Below are positions 35,294 through 41,134 of a stretch of 64,000 nt of DNA, piece after piece. The stretch is taken from the NCBI GenBank assembly GCA_026982705.1, contig JALSGP010000033.1:124001-188000 (forward strand), read 5' to 3'. Below the pieces are notes generated by a model. It was not told where the DNA came from, did no database searches, and saw only the letters and a list, made by a program, of their open reading frames with translations. Position numbers and translations under genes: made by a program. Every line of letters starts with the position of its first letter. Position 1 is the first letter of the stretch. The stretch comes from Alphaproteobacteria bacterium (GTDB taxonomy: Bacteria; Pseudomonadota; Alphaproteobacteria; Geminicoccales; Geminicoccaceae).

Positions 35294-36709
35294 TCATCCG
35301 GCGGCGGGTTCGGGGGCGGCCGGCACCGGCGCGGCGGCGCGAGCGGGAAAGCGGATGCGCGCGATCAACCCCGGCGCCGCATCGTCCAGCTCGAGCTCGG
35401 CACCGTGCAGATGGGCGACCGCTTCCACCAGTGACAGACCGAGACCGTTGCCCGGGGTGGAGCGGTCGGGGTCCAGCCGGACGAAGCGCTTGCGGGCGCG
35501 CTCGCGCTGGTCGGGCGGAATGCCCGGACCGTTGTCCACCACCTCCACCACCGGCGGCGGGCCGCGCCGCACCCTGAGCTCCACCCGCCCGCCCTCGGGC
35601 GTGTACTTGACGGCGTTGTCCACGAGATTGGCCACCGCCTGGGCCAGCAACTGGCGGTGTCCCGAGACGCAGGCGGGCGATTCCAGGCTCTGGACCAGCC
35701 GGATGGCGCGTTCCTCGGCGAGGGGTTCGTAGAGCTCGGCCACGTCGGCGGCGACGGCGGCGAGGTCCACCGGCTCCAGCTCCGCCTCCAGCGTGCCGGA
35801 TTCGGCGCGGGCGATGGCCAGCAGCGCGTCGAAGGTGGCGATCAGCCCCTCGATGTCGCGCATGGCCTCCTCCAGCACCTCGCGGGCCTTGCCCACGTCC
35901 AGCTCGCCCATGAGGGCCAGTTCGATGCGCGCGTGGAGACGGGTCAGCGGCGTGCGCAGATCGTGGGCCACGTTGTCCGTCACCTCGCGCATCGCCCGCA
36001 CCAGCTCCTCGATGCGATCCAGCATGGCGTTGAGATTGCGGGCCAGTTCGTCGAACTCGTCGTCGCTGCCCTCGGTGCGGATGCGCCGGGACAGGTCCCC
36101 CGCCATGATGCGCTCGGTGGCGCGATTGATTCCCTCGAGGCGGGCGAGTGTCCAGCGCGAGAGGGCGAAGCCGCCCAGCACGCCGATCACGAGGATGAGA
36201 CCGCCGCCCAGCATGATGGCGTTGGCCAGCATGTGCTGGACGCCGATGCGGTCGGAGACGTCGCGTCCCACCAGCAGCCGCCAGCGGCCGGCCACCAGGA
36301 AGCGGCGGGCCAGGGCCTCGCGGCGCAGGACCTCGCCGTCGCGGCCACGGCGCTCGAAGGTGAAGCGGATGGTCCCGTCCTCGTTCTCCTCCCCCTGCGG
36401 CCAGCGGTCGAGATTGCCGGCGATCCAGCGCCCGTCGGCGTCGATCAGCAGATAGAGGCTGGCGCGGTCGCGGGCCGCCTCGGCACGGCGGCGGATGACC
36501 TCGGTGAGGCCGCGGATGCCGCGCTGGCGGAACTGCTCCTCGAGGCCGGTGATCTCGGCGGCGATGGTCTCGCGGGTCTGGCGCTCCATGAAGCCCACCG
36601 CCGATTCGTAGACGAAGGCGAGGAGCGCCAGGGCCGAGATGCCGAACACCCCGAGATAGGCGAGGGTGAGCCTAAAGGTCGCCGTGCGGAGAAGTCTTCC
36701 GAGGATCAC
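35294..36709 (-). CDS. sensor histidine kinase
   Basis: 471 aa. Two membrane helices (residues about 13-33 and 160-185) frame a periplasmic sensor of roughly 125 residues; a HAMP domain follows (LEGINRATERIMAGDLSRRI), then the phospho-acceptor His in VTDNVAHDLRTPLTRLHARIE and the ATPase motifs N (LLAQAVANLVDNAVKYTPEGG), G1 (VVEVVDNGPGIPP) and G2 (STPGNGLGLSLVEAV). GTG start at 36709, 38 nt inside the end of the response-regulator gene, so the two are coupled. Confidence 0.93.
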   Translation of the reverse strand: MILGRLLRTATFRLTLAYLGVFGISALALLAFVYESAVGFMERQTRETIAAEITGLEEQFRQRGIRGLTEVIRRRAEAARDRASLYLLIDADGRWIAGNLDRWPQGEENEDGTIRFTFERRGRDGEVLRREALARRFLVAGRWRLLVGRDVSDRIGVQHMLANAIMLGGGLILVIGVLGGFALSRWTLARLEGINRATERIMAGDLSRRIRTEGSDDEFDELARNLNAMLDRIEELVRAMREVTDNVAHDLRTPLTRLHARIELALMGELDVGKAREVLEEAMRDIEGLIATFDALLAIARAESGTLEAELEPVDLAAVAADVAELYEPLAEERAIRLVQSLESPACVSGHRQLLAQAVANLVDNAVKYTPEGGRVELRVRRGPPPVVEVVDNGPGIPPDQRERARKRFVRLDPDRSTPGNGLGLSLVEAVAHLHGAELELDDAAPGLIARIRFPARAAAPVPAAPEPAAG

Positions 36710-37382
36710 GCAGCGAGTACCCCGCCCCGCGGATGGTCTGGATCAGGGGCACCTCGAATCCCCTGTCGATCTTCTGCCTGAGGCGGCTGATGTGGACGTC
36801 GATGACGTTGGTCTGGGGATCGAAGCGATAGTCCCACACCTTCTCCAGCAGCATGGTGCGGGTCATCACCTGCTCGGCGTGGCGCATCAGCACCTCGAGC
36901 AGCTTGAACTCCCGCGGCTGCAGCTCGATGGTGCGCCCCGCCCGCGTCACCTTGCGGGTGAGCAGGTCCATCTCGAGATCGGCATAGCGCAGCACCGTCT
37001 CCCGCGCCTCCGCCGCCGGCGCCATCCGCCGTCGCGCCAGCACCTCGAGGCGCGCCAGCAGTTCGGCGAAGGCGTATGGCTTGACCAGATAGTCGTCGCC
37101 GCCGGCGCGCAGACCCTTGACCCGGTCGTCCACCTGGCCGAGGGCGGAGAGGAACAGCACCGGCGTGGTGTTGCCGGTGGCGCGCAGGGTCTGGACGAGG
37201 GCGAGGCCGTCGAGACCCGGCAGCAGCCGGTCCACCACCAGCACGTCGTAGTCGCCGGTCTGGGCCATGAGCAGTCCGTCGCGGCCGTCGTGGGCCACGT
37301 CCACCACATGCCCGGCCTCGCGCAGGCCCTTGGCCATGTACGAGGCGGCCTCGCGGTCGTCCTCGATCACCAGCACCCGCAT
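36672..37382 (-). CDS. OmpR-family response regulator
   Basis: 236 aa. The receiver domain has the acidic pair after VLVIEDD, the phosphorylated Asp51 in VLVVDRLLPGLDG, the Thr/Ser position in VLFLSALGQ and Lys in DDYLVKPYAF. The C-terminal winged helix shows ELQPREFKLLEVLMRHAEQVMTR and VIDVHISRLRQKID with IQTIRGAGYSL. It is placed between a DegP-type protease and its kinase, so it probably responds to envelope stress; that link is inference from position. Confidence 0.94.
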   Translation of the reverse strand: MRVLVIEDDREAASYMAKGLREAGHVVDVAHDGRDGLLMAQTGDYDVLVVDRLLPGLDGLALVQTLRATGNTTPVLFLSALGQVDDRVKGLRAGGDDYLVKPYAFAELLARLEVLARRRMAPAAEARETVLRYADLEMDLLTRKVTRAGRTIELQPREFKLLEVLMRHAEQVMTRTMLLEKVWDYRFDPQTNVIDVHISRLRQKIDRGFEVPLIQTIRGAGYSLRDPRKTSPHGDL

Positions 37383-37404
37383 GGCAGCCCGTGAGATAGG
37401 GCGG

Positions 37405-37444
37405 CGGGGAGCCGGCGGGAGGGGCGGGATCCCCCGGCTCCCCG
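37405..37444 (-). promoter_or_regulatory. strong hairpin between degP and the response regulator
   Basis: An 11-bp perfect stem (37405-37415 with 37434-37444, CGGGGAGCCGG against its complement) and an 18-nt loop lie in the 68-nt gap between the degP stop and the response-regulator start. No T-run follows, so it may be a processing or stabilising element that sets different protease and regulator levels. Confidence 0.5.
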
Positions 37445-37450
37445 ACGCGC

Positions 37451-38974
37451 TCACTCCTGCTCCAGCGGCAGCGCCACGAAGCGCGGCTGCTCGCCCCGGA
37501 ACACCCTCAGCAGCACCGCCCTGCGCCCGGCCTTCTCGGCCGCCCGCACCGCCGCCCGGAGATCGGCGACGCTGCGCACCGGCCGGCCGCCGGCATCGGC
37601 GATCACGTCACCCGGCTGCAGTCCCTTCTCCGCCGCCGGGCCCTCCGGATCCACCTCGAGGATCACGAGCCCCTCCACCCCTTCGGGAATCCGGAAGCGG
37701 GCCCTGAGTTCCGCGTCGAGGACGGCCACCCGCAGACCGAGAGCGGCGGTGCCGGCCGTCCGCTCCTCCGGCGGGGCCTCCGCCCGCTCCACCTCCGCCG
37801 GCATCTCGCCCAGCTCCACCCTCAGGGTGCGGCGTTCGCCGTCGCGGACGACGTCGATGCGCGCCACGTGGCCGGGGCCGGCACGGGCCACCTTCTTGGC
37901 GAGATCGCGGGGATCCTCCACCGGCGCGCCGTCGAAGCCCACCACCACGTCGCCCGGCCGGATGCCGGCCTCGGCGGCGGGCGTGTCCGGCTCCACCCGG
38001 CTGACCAGCGCCCCGCGCGCCTCCTCGAGGCCGAGGGCCCGGGCGATGTCCTCGTCCACCGGCTGGATCAGCACTCCCAGCCAGCCGCGCTCCACCTTCC
38101 CCTTCTCGATGAGCTGGGCCACCACCTCCTTCGCGAGATTGGCGGCGATGGCGAAGCCGATGCCCACATTGCCGCCGGTGGGCGAGAAGATCATGGAATT
38201 GACCCCGATCACCTCGCCGTCGAGGTTGAAGGTGGGACCGCCGGAATTGCCCCGGTTGATGGGGGCGTCGATCTGGATGAAGTCGTCGTAGGGCCCGACG
38301 CCCAGCTCGCGCTTGGTGGCGGAGACGATGCCCGCCGTCACCGTCCCGCCGAGCCCGAAGGGATTGCCCACGGCGACGATCTTGTCGCCGACCCGCACCC
38401 GGTCGCTGTCCCCGAACTCCACGTAGGGGAAGGGGCCGTCGCTCTCGAGCTTGAGGACGGCGAGATCCGTCTTCTCGTCCAGTCCCACCACCTCGGCGGC
38501 GAGCTTGGTGCCGTCGTCGAGGGTGACGGTGATGCGCTCGGCCTCCCGTGCCACGTGCGCGTTGGTGACCACGTGGCCCACCTCGTCGATGATGAAGCCG
38601 GAGCCCACCGCCTCCAGCCGCCGTTCCGGCGGCCGCGGCCCCGGCGGCCGGCCGAAGGGATCGAAATCCGGTCCGAAGAAGCGCCGGAAGAAACGGCGCA
38701 GCTCCGGCGGGATCGGCATCTCCTCCGGCCCCTCCGCCATCTGCTGGCGACGCTCCACCTCCACGTACACCACCGCCGGCACCACCGCCTCCACCAGATC
38801 GGCGTAGCTGCGCTCGAAGTCGGCGCCGGCGCGCACCGCCTCCAGCCGTTCGGCCACCAGATTGCGTCCGGCCCACACGCCGGCGCCCGCCGCCGTGCCG
38901 AGGGCCAGGACCAGGACCCCGATCCGCACCGCTCTCCGGGCGGTGCAGGGGAAACCTCCCCGGATCTCCAGCAT
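37451..38974 (-). CDS. degP: DegP/HtrA-type periplasmic serine protease
   Basis: 507 aa. N-terminal signal anchor (VRIGVLVLALGTAAGAGVWAG), then the trypsin-like domain with His in VVTNAHVAREAE, Asp in DEKTDLAVLKLE and Ser in PINRGNSGGPTFNLDG, followed by two PDZ domains (RGWLGVLIQPVDEDIARALG and EVDPEGPAAEKGLQPGDVIADAGG). It degrades misfolded envelope proteins. The ATG at 38974 has GGGGAGAG upstream; the 27 codons before it in frame lie in the divergent promoter region and were excluded. First gene of degP-regulator-kinase. Confidence 0.94.
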   Translation of the reverse strand: MLEIRGGFPCTARRAVRIGVLVLALGTAAGAGVWAGRNLVAERLEAVRAGADFERSYADLVEAVVPAVVYVEVERRQQMAEGPEEMPIPPELRRFFRRFFGPDFDPFGRPPGPRPPERRLEAVGSGFIIDEVGHVVTNAHVAREAERITVTLDDGTKLAAEVVGLDEKTDLAVLKLESDGPFPYVEFGDSDRVRVGDKIVAVGNPFGLGGTVTAGIVSATKRELGVGPYDDFIQIDAPINRGNSGGPTFNLDGEVIGVNSMIFSPTGGNVGIGFAIAANLAKEVVAQLIEKGKVERGWLGVLIQPVDEDIARALGLEEARGALVSRVEPDTPAAEAGIRPGDVVVGFDGAPVEDPRDLAKKVARAGPGHVARIDVVRDGERRTLRVELGEMPAEVERAEAPPEERTAGTAALGLRVAVLDAELRARFRIPEGVEGLVILEVDPEGPAAEKGLQPGDVIADAGGRPVRSVADLRAAVRAAEKAGRRAVLLRVFRGEQPRFVALPLEQE

Positions 38975-39092
38975 GGTCTCTCCCCGCTCGTCCGTTGCGA
39001 CCCGCGTCGTGGTGGCGGATCCGACTGACCGCCGCCTTGTCGCGGGGTGAAACATCGGTCATGGACGGCGCGAACGCAACGGACCCCCCACG

Positions 39093-39809
39093 GTGCGCAT
39101 CGCCCTTTTCCGGCCTCCACCGGCGACGGAACGCGTCACGTTGCTGGCAGCGGTGGACGGGGCGGCGGCGGTGGCGGCCGCCGACCGTGCCCGGCTGCTG
39201 CTGCTGCCGGCCGGCGTGTGGCCGCCGCGGGGTGGCGAGAGCGCCGACGGCCCCTTCGCCGAGGGGCTCGCCACCGTCGCCGCCCGGCATCGCCTAGCGC
39301 TGATCGCCGGACTGGTGGAGGAGGCCTTCGGGCACCGCTTCGATTCCGCCCTCGTCTTCGGCGCCGACGGCCGTGCCCGCGGCCACTACCGCCGGGTCCA
39401 CCTGGCGGCGGAGGGGGAGCGCTTCGCCGCCGGCCGCTGGGGCCTGGTGGCGCCGCTGGAATGCGGCCCCACCGCGGTGGTGATGGGGGCGGATCTGTGG
39501 GTGCCGGAATACATCCGCGCGCTGGTGCTGACGGGGGCGCGGCTGGTGGTGGGCTTGGACCGCGCCGCCGCGGCGGCGACGGCCGTGCTGGCCGCGGCCC
39601 GCGCGCTGGAGAACGGCGTACCCCTGGTCTGGGCCGCCGTGAGCGGCCCCGCGGGTCTGTGGAGACCGGACGGCACGCACGTCTCCGTCGAGGAGGCCCC
39701 GGGGACCGTCCGCCTCGTCACGGTGACGGGGACCACCCCGGCCCTCCGTCCCGTCCGCCGCCATCCCCGGCTCTACCGGCCGGTGTGCGGGGAGGAGGAC
39801 CGGGACTGA
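39093..39809 (+). CDS. nitrilase-fold protein lacking the catalytic triad
   Basis: 238 aa that follows the carbon-nitrogen hydrolase fold along its length (LALIAGLVEEAFGHRFDSALVFGADGRARGHYRRVHL in two parts, and the RALENGVPLVWA segment). All three catalytic residues are replaced: the Glu of the PE motif is Ala40 (LLLLPAGVW), the Lys of YRKVHL is Arg101, and the Cys of the C-Y-D motif is Gly132 (VVMGADLWVPEY). The structural Glu in AAEGERF remains. The reading frame is intact and codon use matches neighbours, so this looks like a maintained pseudoenzyme, perhaps a binding protein. GTG start at 39093; divergent from degP. Confidence 0.72.
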   Translation: MRIALFRPPPATERVTLLAAVDGAAAVAAADRARLLLLPAGVWPPRGGESADGPFAEGLATVAARHRLALIAGLVEEAFGHRFDSALVFGADGRARGHYRRVHLAAEGERFAAGRWGLVAPLECGPTAVVMGADLWVPEYIRALVLTGARLVVGLDRAAAAATAVLAAARALENGVPLVWAAVSGPAGLWRPDGTHVSVEEAPGTVRLVTVTGTTPALRPVRRHPRLYRPVCGEEDRD

Positions 39810-39816
39810 TCGGCAC

Positions 39817-39984
39817 TCACGAAGGGGACGCGGTCCCGTCCCCGCGTCCCGCTTCCGGCACCGCCGTGCCGACGGGTGGCAGCAGCGCCAGCACCCAGCA
39901 CGGCGGACAGGTCCAGAACAGCCAGGGTGCGGCCGCGAGCGAGGTCACCAGCCACGCCCGCGGCGCCGGCCAGGGCCCCGCCAT
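39817..39984 (-). CDS. small membrane protein with CPPC motif, coupled to hsp20
   Basis: 55 aa; the ATG at 39984 overlaps the hsp20 stop as TGATG, a classic coupling arrangement. Residues 11-37 form one hydrophobic segment, WLVTSLAAAPWLFWTC then PPCWVLALLPP, with Cys26-Pro-Pro-Cys29 inside it. The tail is Gly/Asp/Pro-rich. GC at third codon positions is high as in real genes here. No known family; metal- or redox-binding is a guess. Confidence 0.5.
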   Translation of the reverse strand: MAGPWPAPRAWLVTSLAAAPWLFWTCPPCWVLALLPPVGTAVPEAGRGDGTASPS

Positions 39985-40475
39985 CACGCCGCCTTCACCT
40001 CGATGCGGCGCACCGGCTGCTGCGCCGTCTCGGGCTTGGGCAGGGTGATGCGCAGGACACCACGGTCGAAGACCGCCTCGGCCCTGTCCGGATCCACCTC
40101 CGCCGGCAGGCGGATGGTGCGCTCGAAGCGGCCGAAGCGGCGCTCGATCAGGTGCCGGTTCTCGCCCCTCTCCTCGTGCTCGTCTCGCTTCTCGCCGCGG
40201 ATCACCAGCAGGTCACCGCGCACCTCCACCTGGACGTCCTTCGGATCGACGCCCGGCAGCTCCACGGTGACGCGGCAGGCCTTCTCGTCCTCCGTCACGT
40301 CCACCTCGGGCAGCAGCGTCGCCGTGCCCGCGGCTCCGAACACCGTGGGCCAGGTGCGGGTGAACTCGTCGAACAGCCGGTCGATCTCGCGGCGGATGGC
40401 GACGAAGGGATCCTCCCACGCCTCGCGGTTGGCGGGCGTGAGGGTGCGGAAGGGAACGGGCACACGACCCAGCAT
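39984..40475 (-). CDS. small heat shock protein Hsp20
   Basis: 163 aa. The alpha-crystallin domain spans about residues 50-150: LLPEVDVTEDEKACRVTVELPGVDPKDVQVEV, LLVIRGEKRDEHEE, ERRFGRFERTIRLPAEVD and FDRGVLRITLPKPE with the family GVLxIxxPK ending. ATP-independent holdase for unfolding proteins. AAGGAGGA precedes the ATG at 40475. Second gene of an Hsp20 pair. Confidence 0.93.
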   Translation of the reverse strand: MLGRVPVPFRTLTPANREAWEDPFVAIRREIDRLFDEFTRTWPTVFGAAGTATLLPEVDVTEDEKACRVTVELPGVDPKDVQVEVRGDLLVIRGEKRDEHEERGENRHLIERRFGRFERTIRLPAEVDPDRAEAVFDRGVLRITLPKPETAQQPVRRIEVKAA

Positions 40476-40549: not shown

Positions 40550-41077
40550 TCAGGCGGCCTGCACCTCGACCCGGCCGGTCTCCGTCGCGGCGGTGTCCGC
40601 GTCCTTCTCCCCGCCGCACGGCTCGCTGCGGCTCTCCACCGCCTGCGCCTCCAGCGTCCGCTCGCCCCGGATGGGGATGCGCCGCGGCTTCAGGGCCTCG
40701 GGGATCTCGCGGACCAGCTCGATCACCAGGAGCCCGTTCTCGAGGCGCGCCTCCACCACCCGCACATGGTCGGCGAGCTGGAAGCGCCGTTCGAAGGCAC
40801 GGCCGGCGATGCCACGGTGGAGATACTCCACCTTCGGCTCCTCCTGCCGCCTGCCGCGCACCACGAGGAGGTTGGGCTCGGTCACCACCTCCAGGTCCTC
40901 GGGCCGGAAACCGGCCACCGCCATCACGATGCGGTAGCGGTCCTCGCCGTGCTTCTCGATGTTGTAGGGCGGATAGGAGCTTCCCTCGTCCACCTGCAGC
41001 GCCTGATCCAGAAGCCGCCACAGATGGTCGAAGCCGACGGTGGACCGCATCAGCGGTGCGAAGTCCAGTGCGGGCAT
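40550..41077 (-). CDS. small heat shock protein, IbpA-like Hsp20
   Basis: 175 aa. N-terminus FAPLMRSTVGFDHLWRLLDQAL and SYPPYNIEKHGEDRYRIVMAVAGFRPEDLEV are typical of the IbpA/HspA class; YLHRGIAGRAFERRFQLADHVRV and LENGLLVIELVREIPE complete the alpha-crystallin domain. The C-terminus has PRRIPI, the I-x-I contact motif. GGAGGA lies before the ATG at 41077; the preceding in-frame 14 codons were excluded on that basis. A heat-shock-type promoter lies just upstream. Confidence 0.94.
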   Translation of the reverse strand: MPALDFAPLMRSTVGFDHLWRLLDQALQVDEGSSYPPYNIEKHGEDRYRIVMAVAGFRPEDLEVVTEPNLLVVRGRRQEEPKVEYLHRGIAGRAFERRFQLADHVRVVEARLENGLLVIELVREIPEALKPRRIPIRGERTLEAQAVESRSEPCGGEKDADTAATETGRVEVQAA

Positions 41078-41134
41078 GACGGGTCCTCCTTCGAGCGACT
41101 CCCACACGGGCGGTCCCATGGCGGCGACCGCCGA

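Follow-up and report, generated by a model that had tools for sequence, protein, structure and literature searches.

The gene at positions 39093-39809 of the window (the whole 64,000-nucleotide stretch of DNA analyzed here) encodes a protein, pNit, that has the fold of a nitrilase and lacks the catalytic residues of one. It belongs to a clade of orthologs that have all lost the catalytic Cys, and its linkage to genes of envelope stress is conserved. The likely reading is that pNit has been retained as a non-catalytic protein and recruited into an envelope-stress module, its function being surmised from the linkage. The features on which the argument turns are the following:

35294-36709, minus strand: sensor histidine kinase (HK) with HAMP, HisKA and HATPase_c domains (Pfam)
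36672-37454, minus strand: OmpR/PhoB-type response regulator (RR; Pfam Response_reg and Trans_reg_C)
37451-39055, minus strand: DegP/HtrA-type serine protease with PDZ domains (Pfam Trypsin_2, PDZ_2, PDZ_6), divergent from pNit
39048-39062, plus strand: conserved element TGAAANNTNNGTCAT, a candidate control site in the degP/pNit intergenic region (sequence conservation)
39093-39809, plus strand: pNit, nitrilase-fold pseudoenzyme, 238 amino acids (Pfam CN_hydrolase, alignments, AlphaFold2/Foldseek, tree)
39984-40475, minus strand: Hsp20 small heat-shock protein, convergent with pNit (Pfam HSP20)
40550-41119, minus strand: second Hsp20 small heat-shock protein (Pfam HSP20)

A nitrilase fold without its triad

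The pNit reading frame starts with GTG and runs through 238 codons with no internal stop. An open frame is little proof in G+C-rich DNA, where antisense frames are open too; the case for pNit rests on its orthologs. The protein is a homologue within the nitrilase (carbon-nitrogen hydrolase) superfamily, as profile and fold both attest: it matches PF00795 (CN_hydrolase) with E 2.3e-13 and 50.5 bits (Pfam cut-off: 23.2), as do 20 of 20 aligned orthologs, while several nitrilase-type NCBIfam models match it weakly, with scores far under their cut-offs. Its AlphaFold2 model (alignment A1) is a confident one by its global scores (mean pLDDT 90.2, pTM 0.86), the last 30 residues being weaker, and the 50 PDB entries that Foldseek lists as matches to this model are one and all nitrilases or amidases (TM on the query about 0.75-0.81). 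Amidases of the superfamily (PF00795), such as Pyrococcus PH0642 (1j31, 6ypa) and the Nesterenkonia amidase (3hkx, 4izs), have the same fold and order of elements, and share the YR, D-x-x-x-P-E-x-x-R and RA-x-EN landmarks with pNit. They differ from it in possessing the three catalytic residues, in their greater length, in an untrimmed segment near residues 182-187, and in lacking the new, invariant Trp116.

The Glu-Lys-Cys triad that defines the enzymes is missing from pNit. In a MAFFT alignment, Ala40 stands in the Glu column, Arg101 in the Lys column and Gly132 in the Cys column, and each of these columns holds its catalytic residue in 27/27 active relatives; phmmer likewise aligns "vvMGAD" of pNit to "vmICFD" of Pyrococcus 1j31, and "YRR" to "YRK". 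Might the catalytic residues simply have moved? This was considered and rejected: the window's pNit contains no Lys whatever, and Cys occurs in it just twice, at 124 and 232, in columns that are non-Cys across the clade except in the nearest relatives. An earlier note on this DNA had read nitrilase-fold landmarks and these same three substitutions from the sequence, proposing a profile alignment and a structure prediction as checks and naming catalytic residues found elsewhere as grounds for refutation. The Pfam match, the alignments and the predicted structure uphold its reading, and the triad has not migrated.

Much else is retained. Y99, R100, H103, D134, P138, E139, R142, R170, A171, E173 and N174 are kept in pNit and, for the most part, in the active relatives as well; the segment near 182-187, which supplies N, E/G and S in the active family, is trimmed or altered. 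The exception is W116, in the loop that follows the Lys motif: it is present in 23/23 members of the pNit clade and in 0/27 active relatives. Nineteen columns are invariant in a 20-row alignment of pNit orthologs. In known nitrilases certain helices make up the dimer face; pNit keeps the conserved residues of these helices as well and, to judge from them, would act as a dimer. It is presumably cytoplasmic, since no signal peptide is seen by eye. Automatic annotation would probably label these proteins hydrolases, and the label is likely wrong.

One clade, and the probable order of its losses

The pNit clade is found in 23 of the 31 genomes of the window's order (one family code). In the tree, a branch with support 100/99 divides the 23 sequences from all active relatives, and it is recovered in 100% of the sampled bootstrap trees. 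A search of relatives gives 27-62% identity for the homologues of the same family. A scan of the genome contigs with the single pNit protein gave no match. The 20-row alignment is too diverse to serve as a query; a six-row subset of it, used as a profile, retrieves seven records, which by name are Geminicoccaceae metagenome-assembled genomes (MAGs) such as KatS3mg117, or MAGs assigned at the level of Alphaproteobacteria or Pseudomonadota. Outside the order, the best profile hits were read in samples of 385 genomes from the class and 398 from the phylum. No member of the pNit clade was among them, and all but the one described next keep the triad; few candidates were scored per genome and the top-scoring hits were read, so that a distant occurrence could be missed. 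The exception (L161, G463:C1:5829099-5829899) is a nitrilase homologue with one in-frame TGA and with "LNGVD" in place of the "LICFD" of its relatives; it looks like a decaying copy. A 575-residue tandem nitrilase-fold protein from outside the family (L023, G063:C7, 574-2298) has Gly at the Cys position of its second CN_hydrolase domain, with Glu and Lys kept; this is a separate case of nucleophile loss.

The earlier note had Glu, Lys and Cys lost together, and had proposed a search for orthologs with the same substitutions. The search yields the 23-member clade, and the clade contradicts simultaneous loss. Cys is lost in 23/23 members (replaced by Gly in 21, by Ala in 1 and by Asp in 1). Lys is lost in 22/23; L015 of G021 alone retains it, and retains Glu too. 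The loss of Glu, in 9/23, takes no fewer than three changes of state on the tree. Because the losses are graded in this way, the triad looks to have been lost stepwise, Cys going first, Lys second and Glu last, the latter on more than one occasion. The tree placement of the long branches L015 and L020 is unsure. In a midpoint-rooted tree of the HK and RR, G005, G006 and G007, which have no pNit, fall outside, and G021 branches first inside. At the vacated Glu and Lys positions the clade drifts to many different residues.

Orthologs without catalytic residues, under purifying selection and forming one clade, are what mark a pseudoenzyme, and this is what is found. Frames are open in all 23 members, across many genera. 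For pNit, pairs at 60-74% identity give a dN/dS (NG86) of 0.32-0.42; pairs at 46-48% identity, where dS is unreliable, give 0.54-0.75 (the 0.75 is that of G000, the window's own genome, with G003). Its neighbors are more tightly held: the same close pairs give 0.01-0.23 for HK, RR and the universal stress protein (Usp) and 0.06-0.30 for DegP, one DegP comparison that joined non-orthologous genes being ignored; in the pair G000-G002, pNit stands at 0.41 against 0.05-0.14 for HK, RR and DegP. It is the fastest-evolving gene of the set. The earlier note had suggested dN/dS across relatives as a check and frame disruptions as a sign of decay: the ratios are below 1 and the frames intact.

A described clade of bacterial nitrilase-fold pseudoenzymes was not found in the open-access papers that were searched (subscription literature being mostly outside the scope of the search), which is weak evidence that the pNit clade is new. 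Two partial parallels can be cited. BCG_2279c of Mycobacterium bovis, a homologue of Lnt in the nitrilase superfamily, has its nucleophile Cys changed to Ser; it did not replace its active paralogue, and activity under other conditions was left possible (PMC3850990). Like pNit it has a replaced nucleophile; unlike pNit it has one triad residue changed and is a membrane protein. The defense protein DRT1 has a nitrilase domain whose catalytic Cys is present and needed for phage defense (PMC13275509); it resembles pNit in placing the fold outside ordinary metabolism, but is not a pseudoenzyme.

The stress-gene neighborhood

The divergence of pNit from degP, which the earlier note had remarked on, is borne out, with the proviso that translation of DegP probably begins at the ATG that has 38974 as its first base. 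It is part of a wider arrangement. A home-made gene finder overlooked pNit in some loci, and presence was settled by direct tblastn; in all 22 testable genomes (those with a contig that reaches RR and HK) pNit is transcribed away from these two genes, and DegP lies between in 19 of the 22 loci. In the other three (G015, G023 and G027; L046, L110 and L047, respectively), RR and pNit are divergent and about 120-140 bp apart. On the other side, a Usp gene lies downstream of pNit on the same strand in 19/23 loci, mostly within 40-170 bp, with another gene intervening in G021. It is missing there in G000, G002, G003 and G016; the window's own genus, like G016, no longer has it at the pNit locus. 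In the window, the first Hsp20 gene occupies the place that Usp has in most relatives; the two adjacent Hsp20 genes are common to the window and G002. The Usp ortholog of the window's genome is on another contig (L106, G000:C40:61144-61992), beside a CopD-like gene; several relatives have such a gene right after Usp, and in G000 the two look as though they had moved as a pair.

Some genomes have no pNit. G001 (same genus, 99% complete) lacks it, DegP and Usp facing each other directly; we read this absence as a loss. pNit is dispensable in G001, a 99% complete genome of the same genus being without it. G005, G006 and G007 have HK-RR-DegP and no pNit. In G012, G013, G022 and G026, the HK-RR set was not found beside DegP homologues among the sequence fetched, which was partial for some.

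The 2.65-Mb genome has no second exact match to the element TGAAANNTNNGTCAT at 39048-39062. Of the loci fetched, 26 carry it exactly, although many of these overlap and cover the same places; in several pNit genomes it is present only in a looser form. Since an exact copy also lies upstream of degP in G001 and G006, which have no pNit, it is probably a degP control element, within a putative degP control region that has pNit on its other side. Control of pNit transcription by the neighboring two-component system would be in keeping with the linkage and with this conserved element. (TGNC boxes repeated every 11 bp in the intergenic region, resembling a response-regulator site, were considered; they fit only a minority of loci and gave way to the simpler conserved element. 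Neither a σ70 promoter nor a terminator was found.)

What pNit may do

Is pNit on its way out? One could regard it as a weakly constrained relic in slow decay, lost outright in some lines: it is absent from G001, evolves faster than all its neighbors, and lets its Glu and Lys positions wander. Yet 23 open frames across many genera, dN/dS of 0.32-0.42 in close pairs, the 19 invariant columns with a clade-specific invariant Trp, and a confidently predicted fold are not what a relic would be expected to keep. Taken together, the dN/dS values, W116 and the kept residues argue for selection on the fold with a changed loop, and decay is unlikely. A different thought, also unlikely although a little less so, is that the pocket has been re-tooled and catalyzes another reaction through His103, Asp134, Glu139, Arg100 and the new Trp116. 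Polar residues are indeed deeply conserved in pNit, and one source allows that some proteins without canonical motifs may stay active through moved residues (PMC10211241). But the kept residues are landmarks of active nitrilases too, so that they call for no new role, and the segment that carries N, E/G and S in the active family near 182-187 is cut or changed.

It could also be that pNit is kept for a function that has nothing to do with its stress-related neighbors, the linkage reflecting slow rearrangement. The genomes that have HK-RR-DegP without pNit (G001, G005, G006, G007) and those with Usp elsewhere (G000, G016) are compatible with such an arrangement; adjacency to RR/HK in all 22 testable genomes despite large sequence divergence, and its survival in the three in which DegP is absent from between, make it improbable.

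Retention and recruitment of a non-catalytic protein thus remains the preferred account. The earlier note's proposal of a pseudoenzyme selected for a non-catalytic role holds in that the protein is kept by selection (orthologs, dN/dS below 1, invariant Trp), while ligand binding and regulation, the examples it gave, are no more than candidate roles; to this the linkage to the HK/RR/DegP set and the Usp gene adds that a stress-related role is plausible. The course of events might be pictured as follows. A nitrilase- or amidase-like gene would have settled beside an HK-RR-degP operon and in front of a Usp gene, after the split from the G005/G006/G007 lineage. Its Cys nucleophile would already have been missing from the clade's last common ancestor; Lys would have gone next and, in several lines, Glu after it, the protein keeping its fold and the conserved residues of the helices that make up the dimer face in known nitrilases, and gaining an invariant Trp in the loop past the Lys motif. 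pNit would now be made together with DegP and Usp, governed by the neighboring two-component system, and would work as a cytoplasmic dimer, binding a partner protein or a small ligand in place of catalysis. A more specific version, that pNit is a dedicated non-catalytic component of the envelope-stress response, connecting the HK-RR-DegP set as sensor or adaptor with Usp or the small heat-shock proteins, is offered tentatively, as a possibility that we would not bet on.

The fixed linkage to stress genes provides a testable guess at what pNit does. The graded loss within the clade (one member lacking Cys alone, most lacking Cys and Lys, some lacking all three) allows, in addition, the steps from enzyme to non-enzyme to be examined.
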